Below the pieces are notes generated by a model, which saw nothing but the letters and a program-made list of their open reading frames with translations, ran no database searches and had not been told where the DNA came from. A stretch of 64,000 bases of DNA from Aureimonas pseudogalii (GTDB lineage Bacteria; Pseudomonadota; Alphaproteobacteria; Rhizobiales; Rhizobiaceae), in contig NZ_JACIEK010000002.1 in the NCBI RefSeq assembly GCF_014196835.1, forward strand, positions 124,001-188,000, read 5' to 3'. Below are positions 10,718 to 51,606 of this stretch, one piece after another; positions within the stretch are counted from its first letter, which is position 1, and every line of letters begins with the position of its first letter. The position numbers were made by a program, and so were the translations under genes.

Positions 10718-12229
10718 ATGTCCCATCTCCCGACCCGACCCGCCGCCACGCGCCGTCCGCTGATCCTCGCGGCCGTGATGGCCTCGATGGCGATGATCGC
10801 GATCGAGGCGACGATCGTCTCCACCGCCATGCCGCAGATCGCCGGCCAGCTCGGCGACCTCCATCTCTATTCCTGGGTGTTCTCGTCCTTCCTCCTGGCG
10901 CAGACCGCCACCACGGTGATCTTCGGCAAGCTCGCCGACACGTTCGGCCGCAAGCCCGTTCTGCTGGCGGGCATCGCGGTGTTCCTCGTCGGCTCGGTCC
11001 TCTGCGGCTTCGCCTGGTCGATGCCCTCGCTCATCCTCTTCCGCCTGATGCAGGGCATCGGTGCGGGCGCCATCCAGCCGGTCGGCCTCACCGTGATCGG
11101 CGATCTCTACACGGTGGAGGAGCGTGGCAAGATCCAGGGCTATCTCGCCAGCGTCTGGGGCATCTCGTCGGTGGTCGGTCCCTTCGCGGGTGGGCTGATC
11201 ATCGAGGATCTCTCCTGGTCCTGGATCTTCTGGATGAACCTGCCGATCGGGCTTCTCGCCGCGGTCTTCTTTCTGCGCTTCCTGCGCGAGGAGGTGGCGC
11301 CACGCGAGCGCTCGCTGGATTTCGCGGGCGCGGCGCTCTTCACGGTGGCGGTGGCCGCGCTGATGGTGGCGCTGACCGAGTTCGGCAGCGCCGGCGGGGG
11401 CACGGTTCTCGCGGCCTTCGCGCTGTGCCTCGTCAGCGGCGCGGCCTTCTTCTGGCGCGAGAGCCGGGCGCGCGATCCGATGATGGACCTCAAGCTCTGG
11501 GCGCGGCGCACGCTGCTGACGGTGAACGCCGCGACGCTGCTCTCGGGCATGTCGGTGATCGGCCTCACCACCTTCCTGCCGATGTACGTGCAAGGCGTGC
11601 TCGGCCAGTCGGCGCTCATCGCCGGTTTCACGCTCACCGCGATGGTGCTGGGCTGGCCGATCGGGGCGACGGTTGCGGCGAAGAATTTCGGCCGCTTCGG
11701 GCTGAAGCCGACCATGCTCTTCGGCGCCGCCATGCTGCCGATCGGCGCCACCGCCTTCGTGGTGCTGGGCGCTGGCTCCTCGCCGGTCCTCGCTGCCGTC
11801 GGTTCGGCCGTGATGGGCCTTGGCATGGGCTTCCTGTCGACGTCCGCGATCGTCATCGTGCAGGGGAGCGTCGGCTGGAGCGAGCGCGGCGCGGCGACCT
11901 CGTCCAACATCTTCGCGCGCAATCTCGGGAGCACACTCGGCGCGGCGGCGCTCGGCGCGGTGTTCAACGTCGGGCTCGCGAACGCGGCCGGCGGCGCGGT
12001 GGATTTCGAGCGCATCCGCACGCTGCTCGATGGTGCCGGGTCGCTCGCTGCCGACGCGCTCGCGCGCGGGGCGCTGGAGGCCTCCTTGCATCTCACCTTC
12101 TGGGGCGTCTTCGCCATCGCCTGCGCCACGCTGGCGCTGACGCTTCTGGTGCCGCGCGTGGCGCATGCCGCGGCAGCCAAGCCGGCGGCCGCGGCCGAGC
12201 CGGAGGAGGCCCTGAGCGTCGGGCACTGA
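10718..12229 (+). CDS. DHA2-family MFS drug exporter
   Basis: This 503-residue inner-membrane antiporter belongs to the 14-helix EmrB/QacA group of the major facilitator superfamily. Motif A is present as GKLADTFGRKPVLL and motif C-like sequence as VWGISSVVGPFAGGLI. An acidic residue sits in the first helix (IAIEATIVSTAMPQI), as in drug:proton antiporters. Helices are regularly spaced to the end, and the tail is Ala/Pro-rich. The start ATG 10718 was chosen because the upstream frame is Arg-rich and not membrane-like. No membrane-fusion partner is next to it, so it may work alone. Substrates are unknown. Confidence 0.9.
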   Translation: MSHLPTRPAATRRPLILAAVMASMAMIAIEATIVSTAMPQIAGQLGDLHLYSWVFSSFLLAQTATTVIFGKLADTFGRKPVLLAGIAVFLVGSVLCGFAWSMPSLILFRLMQGIGAGAIQPVGLTVIGDLYTVEERGKIQGYLASVWGISSVVGPFAGGLIIEDLSWSWIFWMNLPIGLLAAVFFLRFLREEVAPRERSLDFAGAALFTVAVAALMVALTEFGSAGGGTVLAAFALCLVSGAAFFWRESRARDPMMDLKLWARRTLLTVNAATLLSGMSVIGLTTFLPMYVQGVLGQSALIAGFTLTAMVLGWPIGATVAAKNFGRFGLKPTMLFGAAMLPIGATAFVVLGAGSSPVLAAVGSAVMGLGMGFLSTSAIVIVQGSVGWSERGAATSSNIFARNLGSTLGAAALGAVFNVGLANAAGGAVDFERIRTLLDGAGSLAADALARGALEASLHLTFWGVFAIACATLALTLLVPRVAHAAAAKPAAAAEPEEALSVGH

Positions 12230-12310
12230 GGGCCGGGGCTTCCGCGGCGCCGATCGCCTTTCGGAGATCGCCGTTCCATCGCGATGGGTTTGGCGTCCTC
12301 GGGGTGCCCT

Positions 12311-13534
12311 TCAGGTGCGGAAGAAGCGGGCCAGCAGCGAGGATTTCGGCGTGCTCGCCGCATCGAGCTTGTCGACCACCTTGAGTCGCCGGATCTCGCC
12401 GCGCCGATACGCGGCGAGGAACCGCTTGTAGTCCTTGATCGAGACGCAGCCATTGGAGTCGCCCCGTGGCCCGAGCATGTAGGTGTGGGCGAGCAGGCCG
12501 ACGCGGTTGTGGACGTTGCGCTGGCCGCCCACCGGGTTGAGCCGCAGCGCCTGGACGCCGTGGAACAGGCTCTCGCGCAAGGTGAGGTCGTAGATGTGCG
12601 GCGGCGTCGGTCCGCGCATCTTCTCGCGCACGAAGCGAACGTCGTCGCGCATCGCGCCCAACCCCGAATGGGCCTCCAGGCGCTCCCCGTTCGGCAGATA
12701 GACGGCCGCGGCCGAGATGTCGTAGATCGCCGTGCCCCGCTCCAATCTCGGGTTCTGCGTGCCGGGCGTGGGCGCGAGCTCGATGTCCGGCATCGACAAG
12801 CTTCCCGCATCGGGCCGCGCATAGGCCAGAAGCGGAACGGCGCGCGGCTCGGCCGGCGGAGCCTCTGCGGTTCGGCGCGGGGCGACGGGTTGGGGCGCCG
12901 CCGGAGCGAGGGGGGCCATGACCGGACGACGCGTCGGAAGCGGCACGCTCAGCAGGGCCATCTCGACCTCGCCTGCGACACTGGCACGTGTCGCGTCGGT
13001 GCCTTCCGCCGCCGATGCGGCCGAAATGTCTGCTTGAACCGGCGATGGCCGATCCCGCGCATCCGCCACGACGAAATCGGCGACCGGCGTGCCCGAGATC
13101 GAGGCGAAACGCGCGGCGATCGCGGCATCGGGCCTGTCGAGCCGATGGGTCGCGATTGCCGCGGTGGCCGCGTGGCGCATCGACAGGGTGGTCATCGCGA
13201 GGACGAGGTGCGCGTCGGCCCGAGGCGGCGGGGCGGCGTCAAGCATGGGCGCGGCCCCTTGCGGCGGAAGCACGGCCTGCGCCGGGGAGTGGGGGAGGCG
13301 AGGCGAGCGTCCATTGGACGCCGCGTCGAGAGCGATCGACGATGCCGACCGAGCCATGAGCGCCGAGCGGGTGGGCTCGACGTCGGTCGGCGACGCGCCG
13401 GCCACCATCGCAGCGAGAAGCGCCATCGAACAGGCGGCACCACGCAGTTGGATCGCGGAGCGGGCCGTGCGCTTGCGGGCCTTCGGGCGTCGGGCTTTGC
13501 GCGGAGATGTCGGGATGTCGTGGCTCGGGGTCAT
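12311..13534 (-). CDS. DUF2778 (Tlde1-like L,D-transpeptidase fold) protein
   Basis: About 407 residues. A cytosolic basic N-terminus leads to a hydrophobic segment (about residues 29-46), then a long Ala/Pro-rich linker, and finally a C-terminal DUF2778 domain over the last about 140 residues. The domain is well conserved: TAIYDISAAAVYLPNGE, LEAHSGLGAMRDD, MRGPTPPHIYDLTLRESLFH and HTYMLGPRGDSNGCVSIKDY. The last motif supplies the His and Cys expected at an L,D-transpeptidase-like active site. DUF2778 includes the type VI effector Tlde1, but the rhizobial proteins have an N-terminal anchor and may act on the cell's own peptidoglycan. The start is uncertain: ATG 13534 or ATG 13597; neither has a good ribosome-binding site. 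Confidence 0.85.
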   Translation of the reverse strand: MTPSHDIPTSPRKARRPKARKRTARSAIQLRGAACSMALLAAMVAGASPTDVEPTRSALMARSASSIALDAASNGRSPRLPHSPAQAVLPPQGAAPMLDAAPPPRADAHLVLAMTTLSMRHAATAAIATHRLDRPDAAIAARFASISGTPVADFVVADARDRPSPVQADISAASAAEGTDATRASVAGEVEMALLSVPLPTRRPVMAPLAPAAPQPVAPRRTAEAPPAEPRAVPLLAYARPDAGSLSMPDIELAPTPGTQNPRLERGTAIYDISAAAVYLPNGERLEAHSGLGAMRDDVRFVREKMRGPTPPHIYDLTLRESLFHGVQALRLNPVGGQRNVHNRVGLLAHTYMLGPRGDSNGCVSIKDYKRFLAAYRRGEIRRLKVVDKLDAASTPKSSLLARFFRT

Positions 13535-44780: not shown

Positions 44781-45743
44781 GTGCAAGACCCAACTCGAAC
44801 GCCCGATGTCGATCCTTTGCTGGATGAAACCATCCCCGACATGGATCCGCCTCGAGCGCCGACGCTCGTCGCGAAGATGCCGGACGAGACGATCGGCGAC
44901 CTGATCGAGCGTTTCGAAGCTGCGGGTCATACCGATGTCGAGGGGCACGAATACTGGTTCGCGCGTGATCTGCAGACGCTCCTCGATTACGCCAAGTGGG
45001 AGAATTTCCTGACGGTCATCGAGCGGGCACGGATTGCCTGCGAGATGTCGGGCCACGACCCTGCGGACCATTTTCCTGACGTCGGGAAAATGGTCACGCT
45101 CGGCAGTGGTGCCGAGCGTGAGATCGAGGACATCGCCCTCAGCCGTTATGCCAGCTATCTGGTGGCGCAGAATGCCGATGGCCGGAAAAGACCTGTCGCG
45201 TTCGCCCAGACTTACTTCGCCATCCAGACACGCCGGGCCGAACTCAACGACCAAGCCGCCGTGCCGGCCCCCGTTCTCTCCGAAGACGAGCGGCGATGCC
45301 CGCTTCGCGACGAGATCAAGAAGCACAACAAGAGCCTTGCGAGCACGGCCAAGACTGCCGGGGTCGACACTCCCTTCGACTTCTTGGTCTTCCGGACCCA
45401 TGGCTACAAGGGCCTTTATGGCGGTCTCGACGTCGCTGGCATTCAGCGCCACAAGGGATTGAAGCCGAAGCAACCCATCCTCGATCACATGGGCAGCACC
45501 GAGCTCGCCGCGAACCTCTTCCGGGCGACACAGACCGAGGAGAAGCTAAGGCGCGACGGTATTCGTGGGAAAGAAAAAGCCAATCAGACCCACTATGACA
45601 TCGGTTTGAAGGTCCGCCAGACCATTGCCGAGATCGGCGGTACGATGCCGGAGGCGCTTCCCGTCGCCGAGGATATCAAGAAGGTCAATCGGCGCGTCCA
45701 AAAGTCGGGTCCCGATCTCCTGACCGACGAAGGCGGAGATTGA
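44781..45743 (+). CDS. dinD: DNA damage-inducible protein D (DinD)
   Basis: This 320-residue protein is a clear DinD: EYWFARDLQTLLDYAKWENF, DVGKMVTLGSGAEREIEDIA, LSRYASYLVAQNADGRKRPV, TPFDFLVFRTHGYKGLYGG, ILDHMGSTELAANLFRATQT and EKLRRDGIRGKEKANQTHYD. In E. coli DinD is SOS-induced and inhibits RecA filaments. GC content is visibly below its neighbours, and the family is sporadic, so acquisition by transfer is likely. It starts at GTG 44781 after AGAAGG. No clean LexA box (GTTC-N7-GTTC) was found upstream. The stop is only a few bases from the stop of the convergent ATP-grasp gene. Confidence 0.93.
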   Translation: MQDPTRTPDVDPLLDETIPDMDPPRAPTLVAKMPDETIGDLIERFEAAGHTDVEGHEYWFARDLQTLLDYAKWENFLTVIERARIACEMSGHDPADHFPDVGKMVTLGSGAEREIEDIALSRYASYLVAQNADGRKRPVAFAQTYFAIQTRRAELNDQAAVPAPVLSEDERRCPLRDEIKKHNKSLASTAKTAGVDTPFDFLVFRTHGYKGLYGGLDVAGIQRHKGLKPKQPILDHMGSTELAANLFRATQTEEKLRRDGIRGKEKANQTHYDIGLKVRQTIAEIGGTMPEALPVAEDIKKVNRRVQKSGPDLLTDEGGD

Positions 45744-45747
45744 GGTC

Positions 45748-47202
45748 TCACGTCCGCTCCAGCCGGTCGATGAACCAGCGGGTGAGGCGGGTCCAGACCT
45801 CGTCCTTCTCGGCGGCGTCTTCCACGCCGTGCTCGAGATTGGGATTGTCGTTGACCTCGATGAGGAAGACGCCGCGGTCGGTCTCCTTGAGATCGACGCC
45901 GTAGAGCCCGTCGCCGATGCAGCGGGCCCCGCGCAGCCCGGCATCCAGCACCTGCGCCGGCGCGTCGGCGAGCGCGAAGGCGGTGAAGCCGCCCTCCATC
46001 GGGCGCCCGCCCGCGTCGTGGTTGATGATCTGCCAGTGCGCCTTGGCCATGTGGTACTGCACGGCGAAGAGCGGCTTGCCGCCGAGGACGCCGATCCGCC
46101 AGTCGAAGCGCGTCGGCATGTATTCCTGGGCGATGAGGAGGTCGGAATCCTCCAGCCATGCGCCGGCGAGCGCTTCGAGCGCGGCCATGGTCTCCAGCTT
46201 CTTCACGCCGCGCGAGAAGGATCCGTCGGGGATCTTCAGCACCATCGGGAAGCCGAGCTCGTCGGCGGCCTTCACGAGGTCCTCGCGGCCCCCGATCATC
46301 ACCGAGCGGGGCACGCAGACCCCGTTCGCCGTCATCAGTTCGTTCAGATAGACCTTGTTCGTGCAGCGGATCATCGACACGGGATCGTCGATGACGGGCA
46401 TGCCCTCCTGCATCGCGCGCCGGGCGAAGCGGTAGGTGTGGTTGGAGAGCGAGGTCGTCTCGCGGATGAAGAGCGCGTCGAAATTGGCGAGGCGCGGCAG
46501 GTCGCGCCGGGTGATCGGCTCGACGTCGACGCCCATGCGCGCGGCGATCTTGGCCCAGTGGCGCAGGCTCTCCACCGAGGAGGGCGGCAGTTCGTCCTTG
46601 GGGTCGAAGAGGGTGGCGAAGGAATATTTCGCCGGCGTCTTGGTGCGTGCGTCCCGCCATTCGCGCGCCGTGTAGCGCTCCAGCGCCTCGAGGAAGCGGC
46701 GCTTCTCGGGCTCGTTCATCTTGCCCACCGACAGGAAGCCGATGCGCTTGATGCGCACGCCCTCGCGCATCTCCAGCGTCACCTCCAAGGCGGGGGCGCG
46801 GAACCAGTCGAACAGGAGCTTGGCGAAGCGCTCCAGCCGCGGTTCGGGCGCCTGGCCGAAATAGACGCGGATCGGCTCGGCCGGCAGCGGGTGGCGATCG
46901 AACACCTTGGCGAGCACCGCCTCCAGCTCCGGCAACGCGTTCTCGTGGAGCTTGCGCTCGGAGAGGTCGATCATCGTCTCCACCGAGGGGATGACCCGGT
47001 GGCCGCGCGCCCCTGCCAGCAGCGAGGCGTAGTAGCCCCGGCTCTGGTAGGCGTAGGAGCGGCAGAGATTGATGATCTTCGGCCGCTGCCCCCCGAAGAG
47101 CGCGGGGCGGGCGAGATAGTCCCGGCTCGTCATGATCTTGTGCGGGGTCGAGGCGTTGTCGAGGTCGGACGCGCGGCCGACCAGAATGACCCATTGGGAC
47201 AT
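45748..47202 (-). CDS. RLAN-domain RimK-type ATP-grasp ligase
   Basis: This 484-residue enzyme has an N-terminal RLAN domain (residues about 1-165: VILVGRASDLDNASTPHKI, RPKIINLCRSYAYQSRGYYA, LLAGARGHRVIPSVETMIDL) and a C-terminal RimK-like ATP-grasp domain. ATP and metal motifs are FPMVLKIPDGSFSRGVKKLE, LLIAQEYMPTRFDWRIGVLG and GVFLIEVNDNPNLEHGVEDA. Such enzymes ligate an amino acid or peptide to a carboxylate using ATP. It is the last gene of an operon with a GNAT/C39-peptidase fusion 62 bases upstream, an association known for RLAN proteins. The acceptor and the added amino acid are unknown. Confidence 0.9.
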   Translation of the reverse strand: MSQWVILVGRASDLDNASTPHKIMTSRDYLARPALFGGQRPKIINLCRSYAYQSRGYYASLLAGARGHRVIPSVETMIDLSERKLHENALPELEAVLAKVFDRHPLPAEPIRVYFGQAPEPRLERFAKLLFDWFRAPALEVTLEMREGVRIKRIGFLSVGKMNEPEKRRFLEALERYTAREWRDARTKTPAKYSFATLFDPKDELPPSSVESLRHWAKIAARMGVDVEPITRRDLPRLANFDALFIRETTSLSNHTYRFARRAMQEGMPVIDDPVSMIRCTNKVYLNELMTANGVCVPRSVMIGGREDLVKAADELGFPMVLKIPDGSFSRGVKKLETMAALEALAGAWLEDSDLLIAQEYMPTRFDWRIGVLGGKPLFAVQYHMAKAHWQIINHDAGGRPMEGGFTAFALADAPAQVLDAGLRGARCIGDGLYGVDLKETDRGVFLIEVNDNPNLEHGVEDAAEKDEVWTRLTRWFIDRLERT

Positions 47203-47264
47203 CGGGGAAGACGACTTTCGAGGGGCCGGAGGGCGGCCGGAGGGCGGGAGGCGCGGCGGCCGGG

Positions 47265-48521
47265 TCAGGCGCCGCGGGCGCCACGTCGTTCGAGGAATAC
47301 GGCGGCCTTGAGGCCGACCTTGCCGAAGCGCGCGATGCGGGCGAAGGCGGCGTAGGGGATCGGCAGGTTGGCCGCGTCCGCCATCGACTCGCCCCGCTCG
47401 TCGGCGACCCAGGGATCGTGGATCACGAGGTGCCGCCCGTCGTCGCCATGCACCAGCACCCAGTGCGGCACCTTCTGGCCGAACATGTGATAGCCGGAGA
47501 TCAGCACGGTCGCGGTCCGGCCGGCGGCGACGGCGGCGCGCAGATCCTCGATCGTGAAGGGCCGGATGGTGACGGGAATGCCGTACTCCTCGGCGCGCGC
47601 GCGGAAATCCTCCTGCGCCAGCGCCATGACGCGCTGCTTCTCGGGGCTTCGCACCCCGTCGAGAAAGAGATCGCCGGGCTCGGAGACGTGGATCGCGGCG
47701 TCGAGGCCCATCTCGTGCGCGGTGACGGCGAGGCCGTAGGGCTCGCAGCCGCCCGGCCCCGACATCATGAAGATCGTGGTGGCCTGGCGCCAGAGGCGCA
47801 GCTCCAGCACCGGGCTCATCGCGACGCCCGCGCCGTCGCGCGCCAGCGCCATCATCAGGCAGCAGGCGCCGCAGGTGAAGTCGGTGGTCTGCTCGTAATA
47901 GGGCACGCCGGTGTCGAGCGGGTGGTCGCCGCGCAGCGTCTTCTCGAAGCGGATGGCGCTCGTGTGGTCGGCGTAATAGTCGAGATAGCGCCCGATCGGC
48001 CGGTAGCCGGCGCGCCGGTAGAGCGCAATGGCGCGAGAATTGTCCTCGCGCACCTCCAGCCGCAGGCCGATGCGGTCGCGCTCGAAGGCCTCGTGCTCGG
48101 CGCGCGCCAGCAGCGCTGCGCCGACGCCGCGCCCCGCCGCCTCGCCCGCCACCGCGATGGAGTAGAGCCGGGCGAGCGCGGTGCCGGCGCGAAACAGGAT
48201 CGCGGCATAGCCGGCGAGCCCGCCCACATCGTTCATCGCCGCGATCACCAGCGCCGAGCGCGACTGCAGGAGATTGCGGAAGGAGCGGCGCGAAATACGG
48301 TCGGCGTCGAACGCGGCGCATTCGAGCGCCGCCAGCGCGTCGAGATCGTGGAGCGTCGCGGGCCGGAGCGTCGCCGACGGGCGAGCCCCGTGAGCCTCGA
48401 CCGGAGGCGGTGCGGGGGAGGATGCGGAGGCGGCGGGAGCGGCATGGGGCATGGCGGCAGGGATCATCGAGGCGCCGGCGGCGATCGCGACGGCGTCGTG
48501 ATCGCGGGCTTTCGCTCTCAT
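47265..48521 (-). CDS. GNAT acetyltransferase / C39-like peptidase (DUF3335) fusion
   Basis: A 418-residue two-domain protein. After a 50-residue low-complexity leader, residues about 51-195 form a GNAT domain (TLHDLDALAALECAAFDADR, the acetyl-CoA loop GRGVGAALLARAEHEAFE, and SRAIALYRRAGYRPIGRYLD). Residues about 205-410 form a C39-like papain-fold peptidase: EQTTDFTCGACCLMMALA with catalytic Cys217 and VPHWVLVHGDDGRHLVIHDP with the His/Asp. Neither domain has a signal peptide, so both act in the cytoplasm. Pairing with the RLAN ATP-grasp ligase suggests they make, trim and acetylate a peptide-like product. ATG 48521 is uncertain; Met codons at 48467 and 48452 are alternatives. Confidence 0.88.
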   Translation of the reverse strand: MRAKARDHDAVAIAAGASMIPAAMPHAAPAASASSPAPPPVEAHGARPSATLRPATLHDLDALAALECAAFDADRISRRSFRNLLQSRSALVIAAMNDVGGLAGYAAILFRAGTALARLYSIAVAGEAAGRGVGAALLARAEHEAFERDRIGLRLEVREDNSRAIALYRRAGYRPIGRYLDYYADHTSAIRFEKTLRGDHPLDTGVPYYEQTTDFTCGACCLMMALARDGAGVAMSPVLELRLWRQATTIFMMSGPGGCEPYGLAVTAHEMGLDAAIHVSEPGDLFLDGVRSPEKQRVMALAQEDFRARAEEYGIPVTIRPFTIEDLRAAVAAGRTATVLISGYHMFGQKVPHWVLVHGDDGRHLVIHDPWVADERGESMADAANLPIPYAAFARIARFGKVGLKAAVFLERRGARGA

Positions 48522-48566
48522 ATAGCGCCGCCGCCGCGCCGCCGCGAGGGGCGCTCCGTCTTCCCC

Positions 48567-50048
48567 CTACGCGAGAACGGGGGTGATGTGCGGCGCGAGG
48601 CGCACGATCGGCGCCACCGTCGCGGCGACCGGCACGAGATCGGGCGCGAGCTCGCCGAGGGCGCGGCGCAGCGCCGCGAAGCATGTCGCGTCGATGGCGG
48701 TGCCGACGTCGCGCTCCATGATGGCGAGCGCCTGGCTCACCGGCATCGCCGCGCGGTAGGGCCGGTCGGCGGTGAGCGCGTCGAAGATGTCGGCCACGGT
48801 GACGATGCGCGTCTCGAAGGAGATGGCCTCGCCCTTGAGGCCATCGGGATAGCCTCGGCCGTCCAGGCGCTCGTGATGGGCGCCGCCCACCGCCGCGATC
48901 TCGGCGAAGGCGGGAATGCGGGCGAGGATCGTGCGGCTGTGGCTGGCGTGCCGGCGCATCTCCATCCACTCGGCCTCGTCGAGCTTGCCCGGCTTGTCGA
49001 GGATGGTGTTGGAGACGCCGAGCTTGCCGACGTCGTGCAGGAGCGCCGCGCGCTTCATCCAGCGCCGCTTGGCCGCGTCGAGCCCGAGGCTCTCGCCGAT
49101 GAGGTCGGTGACGGCGGCGACGCGCTGGCAATGGCCGGACGTGTAAGGGCTCTTGGAATCGACGATCTCGGCGAAGGCCTCGGCGATGTCGTCGAGATAG
49201 TCCTCGTCGGGGCGTGCGTCGCTCTCGTCGAAACGTTCGAGCAGTCCGTCCTGCGGGCCTTCGAGCCGCTCCCAGAACGCCGGATCGGCGGCGATGCGGG
49301 CGAAGGCGAGGGCGAGGACTGGATCGAACCAGCGCCCGGTGCGCTTGGCGGCTTCCGCCAGCGCGGCCCCGCGGCCCCCGCCCTGATGGACGACGTCGAC
49401 GACCTGCGCCAGAAGGGCGATGCGCGAGAAGAGCGGGATCGCCTCGCCGGCGAGCTTCGCCGGCTTGCCGCCGCCGTCCCAGTGCTCGTCGAGCGAGGCG
49501 ACGCCCTCGGCCACGGCTTCCGAGAAGCGCAGCTTGCGCGCGATGGCCGCGCCGCGCCCGCAGCGCGTCTCGATCAGCTCCTGCGCGATCTCGCCGCCGT
49601 TGCGCACGATGTGGACGATGGCGCGCAGCCGCTCGGCGAGGCCGGACTTCAGGCCAGTGTGGCCGATCACGAAGCGCAGCACCTCGGGCAGGCCGTCGTC
49701 GATGCGCTTGAAGGCCTGCTTGAAGCCGAGATCGTCGGTCAGGTAGAGCTGGCAGAGCCGCGCGGCGTTGGAGGAGCAGCCGAGATCCTTGAGCAGCAGC
49801 GTGTAGCGCAGGTCGTGCAGCGCCGCTTCGCCGAGGCCGACCGCCGCGCCGATGCGCGTGCCGATGAAGGCCGAGCGGATGCAGTGGCCCGGCGGCTGGC
49901 CCTCCGTCATGTCGAGCGCGTGGCTCAGCGCCTCGATGATCTCCGACAGACGAGGCCCCGAAGGCGCGGTGCTCGAACCGGCATTCGACGGGAAGGCGAG
50001 GACGGGTGCGAAGGCCGGCAGCCGGCGGTTCGGGGCGAGCGCGCTCAT
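48567..50048 (-). CDS. HD-GYP domain phosphodiesterase with N-terminal HD-like domain
   Basis: A 493-residue protein. The C-terminal half is an HD-GYP domain with HDVGKLGVSNTILDKPGKLD (His338, Asp339) and AHHERLDGRGYPDGLKGEAI at about residues 390-410, the signature of cyclic-di-GMP phosphodiesterases. The N-terminal half (about 36-260) has a second, divergent HD-like helical region (LRYTLLLKDLGCSSNAARL, VASLDEHWDGGGKPAKLAGE) where the fold seems kept but the GYP is replaced by GGKP. No membrane helix or receiver is present. It is the first gene of the operon ending in the ATP-grasp ligase (spacing 45 bases), which links it by position to that pathway. Confidence 0.88.
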   Translation of the reverse strand: MSALAPNRRLPAFAPVLAFPSNAGSSTAPSGPRLSEIIEALSHALDMTEGQPPGHCIRSAFIGTRIGAAVGLGEAALHDLRYTLLLKDLGCSSNAARLCQLYLTDDLGFKQAFKRIDDGLPEVLRFVIGHTGLKSGLAERLRAIVHIVRNGGEIAQELIETRCGRGAAIARKLRFSEAVAEGVASLDEHWDGGGKPAKLAGEAIPLFSRIALLAQVVDVVHQGGGRGAALAEAAKRTGRWFDPVLALAFARIAADPAFWERLEGPQDGLLERFDESDARPDEDYLDDIAEAFAEIVDSKSPYTSGHCQRVAAVTDLIGESLGLDAAKRRWMKRAALLHDVGKLGVSNTILDKPGKLDEAEWMEMRRHASHSRTILARIPAFAEIAAVGGAHHERLDGRGYPDGLKGEAISFETRIVTVADIFDALTADRPYRAAMPVSQALAIMERDVGTAIDATCFAALRRALGELAPDLVPVAATVAPIVRLAPHITPVLA

Positions 50049-50187
50049 CGGTTCCTTCGAGCGTTGACAGCCCCATCAGTTTCGCAGGCCTGCCTTAAAA
50101 TCGCGTCTCGCCCATCCCTAAAATTGGCGCACGATGGCTGCCGGCGCCCGAGATATGAGATATCAGGAGCGGGAAGAGGAGAGGGCG

Positions 50188-51606
50188 ATGGTGCAGGACG
50201 AAGCGAGAGAGCGGCTGGTCGCGGGGCTCGGGGCCGCGATGGTGCTGACCGAGCCGGACGACGTCGCCCGCTACTGCCGCGACTGGCACGGCGACGTCCA
50301 GACCTCGGCCGTGGCGGTGTTGCGGCCGGGCTCGACAGCGGAGGTCTCGGCGGCGGTGAGGCTCTGCGCCGAGCTCGGCCTCGCGCTCGTGCCGCAGGGC
50401 GGCAACACCGGCCTCGTGCTCGGCGGCATTCCCGACGAGGCGGGGGCCGAAGTGGTGCTCTCGCTCGACCGGATGACGCGCATCCGGCGCATCGACCCCG
50501 ACGACTTCTCGGCCGTGGTGGACGCCGGCTGCGTGCTCGAGACAATCAAGGCGGCGGTGGAGGCGGAGGATCGGTTCTTTCCCCTGTCGCTGGGGGCGCA
50601 GGGCTCCTGTCGGATCGGCGGCAACGTCTCCACCAATGCCGGGGGCATCAACGTCCTGCGCTACGGGATGACGCGCGAGCTGGTGCTCGGCCTCGAAGTG
50701 GTGCTGCCCGACGGCACGGTCTGGGACGGGCTCTCGACGCTTCGCAAGGACAATCGCGGCGTCGATCTCAAGCAGCTCTTCATCGGCGCCGAGGGCACGC
50801 TCGGCATCGTCACGGGCGTGGCGCTCAAGCTGCTGGTGAAGCCGACGCAGGTCGAGACCGCGCTTCTGGCGCTCGGCAGCGTCGAGGAAGCGATGGCGCT
50901 CTACCGGCGCGCGCGCACCGACTGCTGCGACCTCATCAGCGCCTTCGAGCTCATCGGCCCCGAGGCGGTGGCGCTGGCGCAGATCGCCCATCCCGATCTC
51001 GTCGATCCGCTGCCCGGCGCGCACCCCGCCTACGTGCTGATGGAACTCGCCGGCACCGGCCTCGTCGACATCCGCGCCCTGCTCGACCGCTTCCTCGAAG
51101 GGGCGATGGAGGAGGGGCTGGTGCTCGACGGCGTGGTGGCGGCCTCGCGGGCGCAGGCGCTGCAGCTCTGGCGCATCCGCGAGGGCATGAACGACGGGCA
51201 GGCGATGCTGGGGGCGCATCTGCGCACCGACGTCTCGGTGCCGCTCTCGCAGGTCGCGCGCTTCGTCGCCGAGGCGCATGCGGCGGTGGCGCGTGATCTC
51301 CCCGACTGCCGCTCCGTCGCCTACGGCCATGTCGGCGACGGCAACATCCATTTCAACGTGCTGCCGCCGCAGGAGGGTGGCCCTGGCGCGGTGGCGGCGC
51401 GCATCAAGGCGGCCAAGGAGACGGTGAACGCCGTGCTCGACCGGTTCGGCGGCTCGATCAGCGCCGAGCACGGCATCGGCCGCCTGAAGCGGGCGGATTT
51501 CGAGGCCCGGCTCGGCGGCGTGCAGGAGGGGCTGCTCCGGGCGCTGAAGGGCGCGCTCGACCCCGCCGGCCGCATGAACCCCGGCTGCCAGCTGCACCGG
51601 CGATAG
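50188..51606 (+). CDS. FAD-binding 2-hydroxyacid dehydrogenase (D-lactate/D-2-hydroxyglutarate type)
   Basis: A 472-residue flavoenzyme of the vanillyl-alcohol-oxidase fold. The FAD domain shows LVPQGGNTGLVLGGIPD and LGAQGSCRIGGNVSTNAGGI, and the C-terminal cap has YGHVGDGNIHFNVLPPQ and SAEHGIGRLKRADFEARLGG, with the metal-binding His. This is the group with D-lactate dehydrogenase, D-2-hydroxyglutarate dehydrogenase and the GlcD subunit; the substrate is not decided by sequence alone. ATG 50188 follows an excellent GAGGAGAGG, so it is preferred to ATG 50134. The next gene on the strand, 54 bases on, is an L-lactate/malate-type dehydrogenase. Confidence 0.88.
   Translation: MVQDEARERLVAGLGAAMVLTEPDDVARYCRDWHGDVQTSAVAVLRPGSTAEVSAAVRLCAELGLALVPQGGNTGLVLGGIPDEAGAEVVLSLDRMTRIRRIDPDDFSAVVDAGCVLETIKAAVEAEDRFFPLSLGAQGSCRIGGNVSTNAGGINVLRYGMTRELVLGLEVVLPDGTVWDGLSTLRKDNRGVDLKQLFIGAEGTLGIVTGVALKLLVKPTQVETALLALGSVEEAMALYRRARTDCCDLISAFELIGPEAVALAQIAHPDLVDPLPGAHPAYVLMELAGTGLVDIRALLDRFLEGAMEEGLVLDGVVAASRAQALQLWRIREGMNDGQAMLGAHLRTDVSVPLSQVARFVAEAHAAVARDLPDCRSVAYGHVGDGNIHFNVLPPQEGGPGAVAARIKAAKETVNAVLDRFGGSISAEHGIGRLKRADFEARLGGVQEGLLRALKGALDPAGRMNPGCQLHRR

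Follow-up and report, generated by a model that had tools for sequence, protein, structure and literature searches.

The window analysed here is a stretch of 64,000 nucleotides from Aureimonas pseudogalii (GCF_014196835.1, NZ_JACIEK010000002.1, positions 124,001–188,000, forward strand), in which a gene for an RLAN-containing ATP-grasp ligase stands beside a gene for a GNAT acetyltransferase fused to a C39-like, papain-fold domain (DUF3335). These two genes, ligase and GNAT(-C39) protein, are the conserved unit, and a third gene next to them, which encodes an HD-GYP protein, is best explained as a lineage-specific neighbour. It is proposed, with a probability of roughly 0.4, that the pair forms a cytosolic module making an N-acetylated short peptide, which the ligase extends, the GNAT domain caps and the C39-like domain cuts. 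A sequence-only reading had joined all three genes into a pathway that builds, trims and caps a peptide or protein tag under cyclic di-GMP (c-di-GMP) control; the pair is real and the build–trim–cap part would remain an economical reading of it, but the HD-GYP and c-di-GMP part is not supported.

Among 61 relatives, counting the window's own genome, 13 have RLAN, and so do 72 of 398 genomes in a sample of the window's phylum. The pairing was observed in two surveys. The first comprised 82 loci (the window, 80 stretches of at most 20 kb and one short locus, L027), with three genomes contributing two loci each and G111, G115, G156, G182 and G256 left out despite a match; the second comprised the best 80 of 587 confirmed named loci and is biased to near relatives, and as the two share some genomes, their counts are not additive. 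Within 4 kb of the ligase, 80/82 loci of the first survey and 80/80 of the second have a GNAT belonging to the same family as that of the window, in agreement with the earlier statement that RLAN ligases are found next to GNAT/C39-like proteins in other proteobacteria; the pair is real and widely conserved. The two genes are nearly always adjacent, a gap above 1 kb occurring in L056 and L218 only; as for the two exceptions of the first survey, the GNAT-C39 gene of L099 is on another contig of the same genome, and a contig end cuts L064, leaving only the C39 part. Where the two genes share a strand in the first survey, GNAT is upstream of the ligase in 41 loci and downstream in 6; it is divergent in 30 further loci, and 3 have a GNAT–ligase fusion. 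The second survey has GNAT upstream on the same strand in 79/80 loci and divergent in 1/80. The fusions join GNAT to the ligase N-terminus in G305, G415 and G419, all of one genus (Pfam was run on two of them). A separate GNAT-C39 gene adjoins the fusion in L066 (9374–11371), L072 (9065–11062) and L077.

The RLAN plus RimK-type ATP-grasp assignment of the ligase holds, since both Pfam domains exceed their cut-offs: the protein belongs to RLAN (PF14401) with 4.4e-43 and 146.9 bits against 25, and the RimK domain is matched with 1.5e-07 and 31.6 bits against 21. Against the RimK family TIGR00768 (an NCBIfam subfamily), the ligase reaches 86 bits, below the cut-off of 143.4. LysX (best) and RimK lead its profile comparison; in the fold comparison, D-Ala-D-Ala ligase comes first, followed by RimK, LysX and ArgX entries. 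The AlphaFold2 model of the ligase has a mean predicted local distance difference test (pLDDT) score of 88.5 and a predicted template modelling (pTM) score of 0.61, the latter leaving the relative placement of its domains unsure; a solved structure covering RLAN was not found by sequence. According to excerpts of PMC10092738, R64, R189 and N262 of RimK contact the poly-glutamate chain. They align to R247, R369 and N451 of the ligase, which are invariant in both ligase alignments, on the assumption that the P. aeruginosa numbering equals that of the aligned E. coli chain.

In the GNAT-C39 protein, Pfam finds Acetyltransf_1 (2.6e-13), and the protein is a member of DUF3335/Peptidase_C39-like (PF11814; 4.8e-77, 258.5 bits against 25). 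Cys217, His353 and Asp369 (alignment numbers plus 49) are invariant across 34 aligned sequences, so that Cys217, earlier noted as intact, is present and conserved. The AlphaFold2 model has a mean pLDDT of 90.5. By family model, the GNAT half is closest to RimI (3.5e-19); on the RimI equivalog TIGR01575 it scores 69.3 bits, below the cut-off of 86.4, and a different gene of the same genome scores 83.9 bits, likewise below it. Ard1 and other N-terminal acetyltransferases are closest by profile; by fold, RimI and Ard1 occupy most of the first ten matches, the first being named in its PDB entry as bS18-alanine N-acetyltransferase. This closeness to RimI and Ard1 makes a peptide or protein N-terminus the likely substrate. 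For the C39-like domain, no significant profile match was found in the PDB.

It was found that the C39-like domain is the variable part of the unit. In a first look that scored at most seven candidates per genome, 58 of 398 genomes carry DUF3335, and RLAN accompanies it in 57 of them (Fisher p 1e-53, a value that should not be taken literally since the genomes are related); of the 72 genomes with RLAN, 15 show no DUF3335. Next to the ligase, GNAT carries a fused C39-like domain in 57/82 and 49/80 loci of the two surveys and stands without it in 23/82 and 31/80. On a quick maximum-likelihood tree of 99 ligases (thinned at 85% identity from 158 rows, and omitting L064, L085, L099 and L217), the C39 state changes at least 20 times, and at least 14 times on well-supported branches alone. 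Such frequent switching indicates that the core is the ligase plus GNAT; of the ligase, protease and acetyltransferase set proposed earlier, the ligase and the acetyltransferase are thus constant, but the C39-like domain is not central. In addition, DUF3335 genes occur apart from the pair: in G066, a GNAT-C39 gene lies away from the ligase and is followed by DUF2817 and DUF155, and in L138 (7616–15297; G256) an extra DUF3335 gene, in which Pfam detects no GNAT domain, comes after oligopeptide-type ABC transporter genes and an AstE/AspA-type gene.

In the proposed mechanism, the ligase and the GNAT(-C39) protein would act in the cytosol. The ligase would activate a carboxylate with ATP and join an amino acid to it, like RimK and LysX, so that a short peptide would be lengthened at its C-terminal end; the RimI/Ard1-like GNAT would acetylate the free N-terminus of this peptide, and the C39-like domain, where present, may hydrolyse or trim the product, most probably a soluble N-acetylated short peptide of ordinary amino acids, whose making would follow a logic like that of N-acetylglutaminylglutamine amide (NAGGN). 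An N-acetylated peptide is favoured by the directly observed linkage and fusions, by the enzyme types (domain identities and conserved residues were likewise observed directly) and by the observed lack of a conserved small open reading frame (ORF) nearby, and the extra DUF3335 gene of L138, standing with oligopeptide transporter and AstE/AspA-type genes, also speaks for it; we infer the reactions, the order of the steps, the cytosolic location and the product.

Several points weigh against this proposal. Proteins are the classical substrates of RimI/Ard1-like GNATs and of RimK/LysX-like ligases, and by this analogy a protein tag would fit equally; the top fold match of the ligase is a D-Ala-D-Ala ligase. 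The comparison of RimK contacts covers three of the residues reported, the others being S7, R8, S14 and S68, and an HWQI stretch, closer to the HWITN of LysX, takes the place of the RimK loop with R, N and H, so that glutamate is not indicated. It has been reported that a five-residue motif influences the substrate choice of LysX and ArgX, the excerpts of PMC10433800 not stating whether HW belongs to that motif. The C39-like domain, in view of the loci and genomes lacking it, is not obligatory, and papain-fold domains are not necessarily proteases, the present one matching no PDB profile significantly. In three loci, a DUF3335 gene that stands alone or is additional has neighbours that give no hint of peptide chemistry: a phospholipid-methyltransferase-type gene in L137, a patatin-type gene in L135, and oxidoreductase and histidine kinase genes in L139. 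Finally, the resemblance to NAGGN synthesis is limited to parts.

Protein tagging in the manner of Pseudomonas RimABK is the main rival to a free N-acetylated peptide. Here, the ligase would extend a host protein at its C-terminus, a protein N-terminus would be acetylated by the GNAT, and the C39-like domain would remove the tag. The relatives of the two enzymes, RimI/Ard1 for the GNAT and RimK/LysX for the ligase, act on proteins, no gene of this genome attains the RimK family cut-off, and a precedent exists in RimK acting with the protease RimB and the phosphodiesterase RimA on ribosomal protein S6 (RpsF), as given in excerpts of PMC7343187. Against this stand the RLAN domain, an extra domain outside the RimK matches, and the lack of a conserved candidate target gene near the pair; DUF155 genes, found in 12/162 loci, would suit tagging but are restricted to few lineages. 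DUF155 is the family of RMND1, which is linked to mitochondrial translation. Overall, tagging is a possible reading, though on balance an unlikely one.

A microviridin-like, graspetide-type maturation, in which the ATP-grasp enzyme cross-links a precursor, the C39 domain cuts off its leader and the GNAT acetylates the core, is much harder to sustain. ATP-grasp ligases, a GNAT and C39 leader peptidases are known in that field (excerpts of PMC13039773), and the PsnB ligase ranks 50 among the fold matches of the ligase, but the ligase is closer to LysX and RimK, and no C39-containing transporter is seen among nine Pfam-annotated neighbour families. Among 4759 ORFs of 20–110 amino acids within 1.5 kb of the pair in 162 loci, none of the 15 largest sets of similar sequences is conserved across genera, 14 being restricted to Mesorhizobium-type Rhizobiaceae loci and one to loci with DUF2817; no precursor peptide was thus found near the pair, the unit does not qualify as a graspetide cluster, and this reading is very unlikely. 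In 13 Mesorhizobium-type loci (for instance L067, 11414–11698, and L165, 8477–8749), the ligase is closely followed by a similar ORF of some 90 codons. It is also improbable, if slightly less so, that the C39-like domain is not a protease and instead serves as an acyl- or amidotransferase passing a ligase-made group to an acceptor: papain-fold families include acetyltransferases and deamidases (excerpts of PMC10318531), but no match is significant, the BtrH-type profile match (E 0.075) standing below five other non-significant rows, and the frequent absence of the domain is incompatible with an essential transfer step.

The remaining rival places HD-GYP, GNAT-C39 and ligase genes in one c-di-GMP-controlled system. 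The HD-GYP protein belongs to HD_5 (PF13487; 2e-53, 181 bits against 27.2). Its C-terminal HD domain reads HDVGK and HHERLDGRGYP, the residues of the HD-GYP motif, and its N-terminal domain is degenerate (KDLGCSS); the HD-GYP protein with a degenerate HD domain had been recognised correctly, but the degenerate domain, called the second, is the N-terminal one. In the window and the congeneric loci L085 and L086, the three genes lie close together on one strand, the RimABK precedent includes a RimK-type ligase able to respond to c-di-GMP (excerpts of PMC7343187), and GGDEF genes lie within 3 kb of somewhat more pairs than expected. However, an HD-GYP gene is directly beside the pair in 4/82 loci (the window, L085, L086 and L091), all of the window's genus, and in 0/80 named loci; counting only loci with at least 2 kb on both sides, the values are 3/77 and 0/66, and an HD-GYP-type match lies about 3.4 and 5.3 kb away in two further loci. 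Of 21 genomes of the genus, 4 have both RLAN and a full-length HD-GYP orthologue, 2 have only RLAN, 7 only HD-GYP and 8 neither of them, which is no association (Fisher p 0.64). Similarly, in G012, G016 and G019 the HD-GYP gene stands at the site without the pair, adjoining rlpA and the next two genes, which flank the unit in the window; in the other genomes with HD-GYP alone (G004, G008, G010 and G015), the vicinity of the gene showed none of those that flank the unit in the window. G003 and G007 have the pair by two of the window's flanking genes, and no HD-GYP gene was found in either genome at the threshold used. In G001, the closest relative, whose ligase is 92% identical, an opposite-strand metallo-beta-lactamase-fold gene separates HD-GYP from GNAT. 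Genus distribution and synteny thus indicate that one region houses the HD-GYP gene and the pair independently of each other, and HD-GYP as a component is rejected on neighbourhood, presence/absence and synteny; c-di-GMP control of the trio is the least likely of the readings considered. Decay of HD-GYP in G008 and G010, suggested by stop codons, was dropped because the stops may be the natural end of the frame.

GGDEF genes occur within 3 kb of 6/52 pairs against 2.3 expected (p 0.028), with p values of 0.23, 0.075 and 0.11 at 1, 5 and 8 kb, the counts for five genomes being lower bounds and the p values therefore somewhat too small. A general c-di-GMP link through GGDEF genes is weak, one of four distances reaching p 0.03 (EAL genes lay outside the test), and GGDEF genes near the pair are over-represented slightly at most. 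In L091, the locus of the closest relative, a convergent GGDEF gene (11340–12671, minus strand) lies near the 3' end of the ligase gene, where the window has a DinD-like gene.

Comparison with known systems places the pair within an uncharacterised kind. The NAGGN system comprises a GNAT/ATP-grasp synthetase, an AsnO-type amidotransferase and a peptidase, the last belonging to another class than the C39-like domain. The present unit resembles it in bringing together a GNAT, an ATP-grasp ligase and a peptidase, with GNAT fused to the ligase in one genus; on the NAGGN synthetase model TIGR03103, the GNAT half scores 24.2 bits against a cut-off of 569, and the ligase gives no match at E 0.001. 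LysX and ArgX work with the carrier protein LysW; LysX, the best profile match of the ligase, shares the HW-I motif with it. Unlike them, the window ligase carries an RLAN domain, and neither the conserved neighbours nor the small ORFs included a carrier-protein gene, though no model-based search for one was made. RLAN neighbourhoods were reportedly described by Iyer et al. in 2009 (Mol BioSyst 5:1636). In excerpts of PMC7343187, Pseudomonas RimABK is a single cluster that encodes a RimK-type ligase together with a protease and a c-di-GMP phosphodiesterase; further RimABK papers are PMC10092738, PMC4741518 and PMC11957791. The window is like RimABK in its RimK-type ligase, its protease-like domain, its predicted c-di-GMP phosphodiesterase gene and the three retained peptide-contact residues, and unlike it in the RLAN domain, the acetyltransferase partner and a protease domain that is papain-like rather than retropepsin-like. 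No c-di-GMP phosphodiesterase conserved beside the ligase was found, given the HD-GYP counts (EAL genes lay outside the search), nor a retropepsin-like RimB, the domain being papain-like (a RimB elsewhere in the genome lay outside the search). DUF3335 is described in excerpts of PMC10318531, which cites the 2009 amidoligase paper of Iyer et al., as often fused to GNAT domains, and it is these GNAT domains that might serve as peptide ligases or acetylating enzymes. The fusion is thus already in print: as far as these excerpts go, the RLAN-RimK/GNAT-DUF3335 proteins of the literature have the same Pfam families and the same fusion as the window, with no difference in kind, the HD-GYP neighbour being local. 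Literature searches found no product for the RLAN ligase/GNAT(-C39) pair, as the sequence-only reading had supposed.

The layout of the locus is given in Table 1. The three genes are on the minus strand at the positions first read, with intergenic spacings of 45 and 62 bases. The start codon of the GNAT-C39 gene is uncertain, the candidates being 48521 and in-frame ATGs at 48467 and 48452, and the first 50 or so residues of its product are not common to relatives; with one of the two later starts, the spacing from the HD-GYP gene would grow to 99 or 114 bases. A consensus scan of 45500–50300 gave no terminator-like site, where chance alone would give 1.2, and a single promoter-like site, at 50095–50124 on the opposite strand, although promoters of other types may be present; a terminator or promoter separating the genes, which had been named as a check, is therefore missing among consensus-type sites. 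The minus-strand ligase frame is open for 1442 codons (45748–50076) and runs through both other genes; as the conserved ligase starts at 47202, the remainder is taken as a shadow frame of high-GC (guanine plus cytosine) DNA.

Table 1. Genes of the three-gene locus in the window (positions of the window).
Feature	Coordinates	Strand	Remarks
RLAN + RimK/LysX-type ATP-grasp carboxylate–amine ligase	45748..47202	-	484 amino acids; core of the unit
GNAT (RimI/Ard1-like) fused to C39-like papain-fold domain (DUF3335)	47265..48521	-	418 amino acids; core
HD-GYP protein, degenerate N-terminal HD domain	48567..50048	-	493 amino acids; neighbour outside the conserved unit

Other genes recur around the pair in some lineages. 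DUF2817 is found in 14/162 loci and, like DUF155, in few lineages; DUF2817 matches occur in 85/398 genomes, many without RLAN, and both were rejected as parts of the unit because they recur in few lineages only. They stand beside the GNAT-C39 or ligase gene in varied arrangements in L136 (9508–12809), L047, L052, L064, L115, L120, L121 and others. In nine loci (L073, L075, L195–L200 and L214), one gene family lies a median of 12 bases upstream of GNAT–ligase on the same strand, and its sole annotated example has amino-acid kinase and PUA domains, the architecture of glutamate 5-kinase. Between the ligase gene and rlpA, the window has a DinD-like gene (44781–45743, plus strand; NCBIfam DNA damage-inducible protein D, 2.5e-118), which was not found in any of 25 related loci compared. 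A role in anti-phage defence was rejected: the HD domain weakly matches Cas3 HD models, and the pair itself has no match.

Taken more broadly, and only tentatively, the pair may represent a widespread bacterial pathway whose product is either a short N-acetylated peptide or an N-acetylated peptide tag that can be taken off again; its RimK-like enzyme would build, its RimI-like enzyme cap and its C39-like domain remove. In a bolder form, the pair may mark ribosomal proteins S18 and S6, which are the targets of RimI and RimK and are neighbours on the ribosome. RLAN ligases occur in 72 of 398 genomes of the phylum and have a near-constant GNAT partner, yet they are without a product in the literature found. 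The c-di-GMP hypothesis drops to last place, and the survey reduces the experimental target to two genes, with the acetyltransferase, not the protease, as the constant partner of the ligase.

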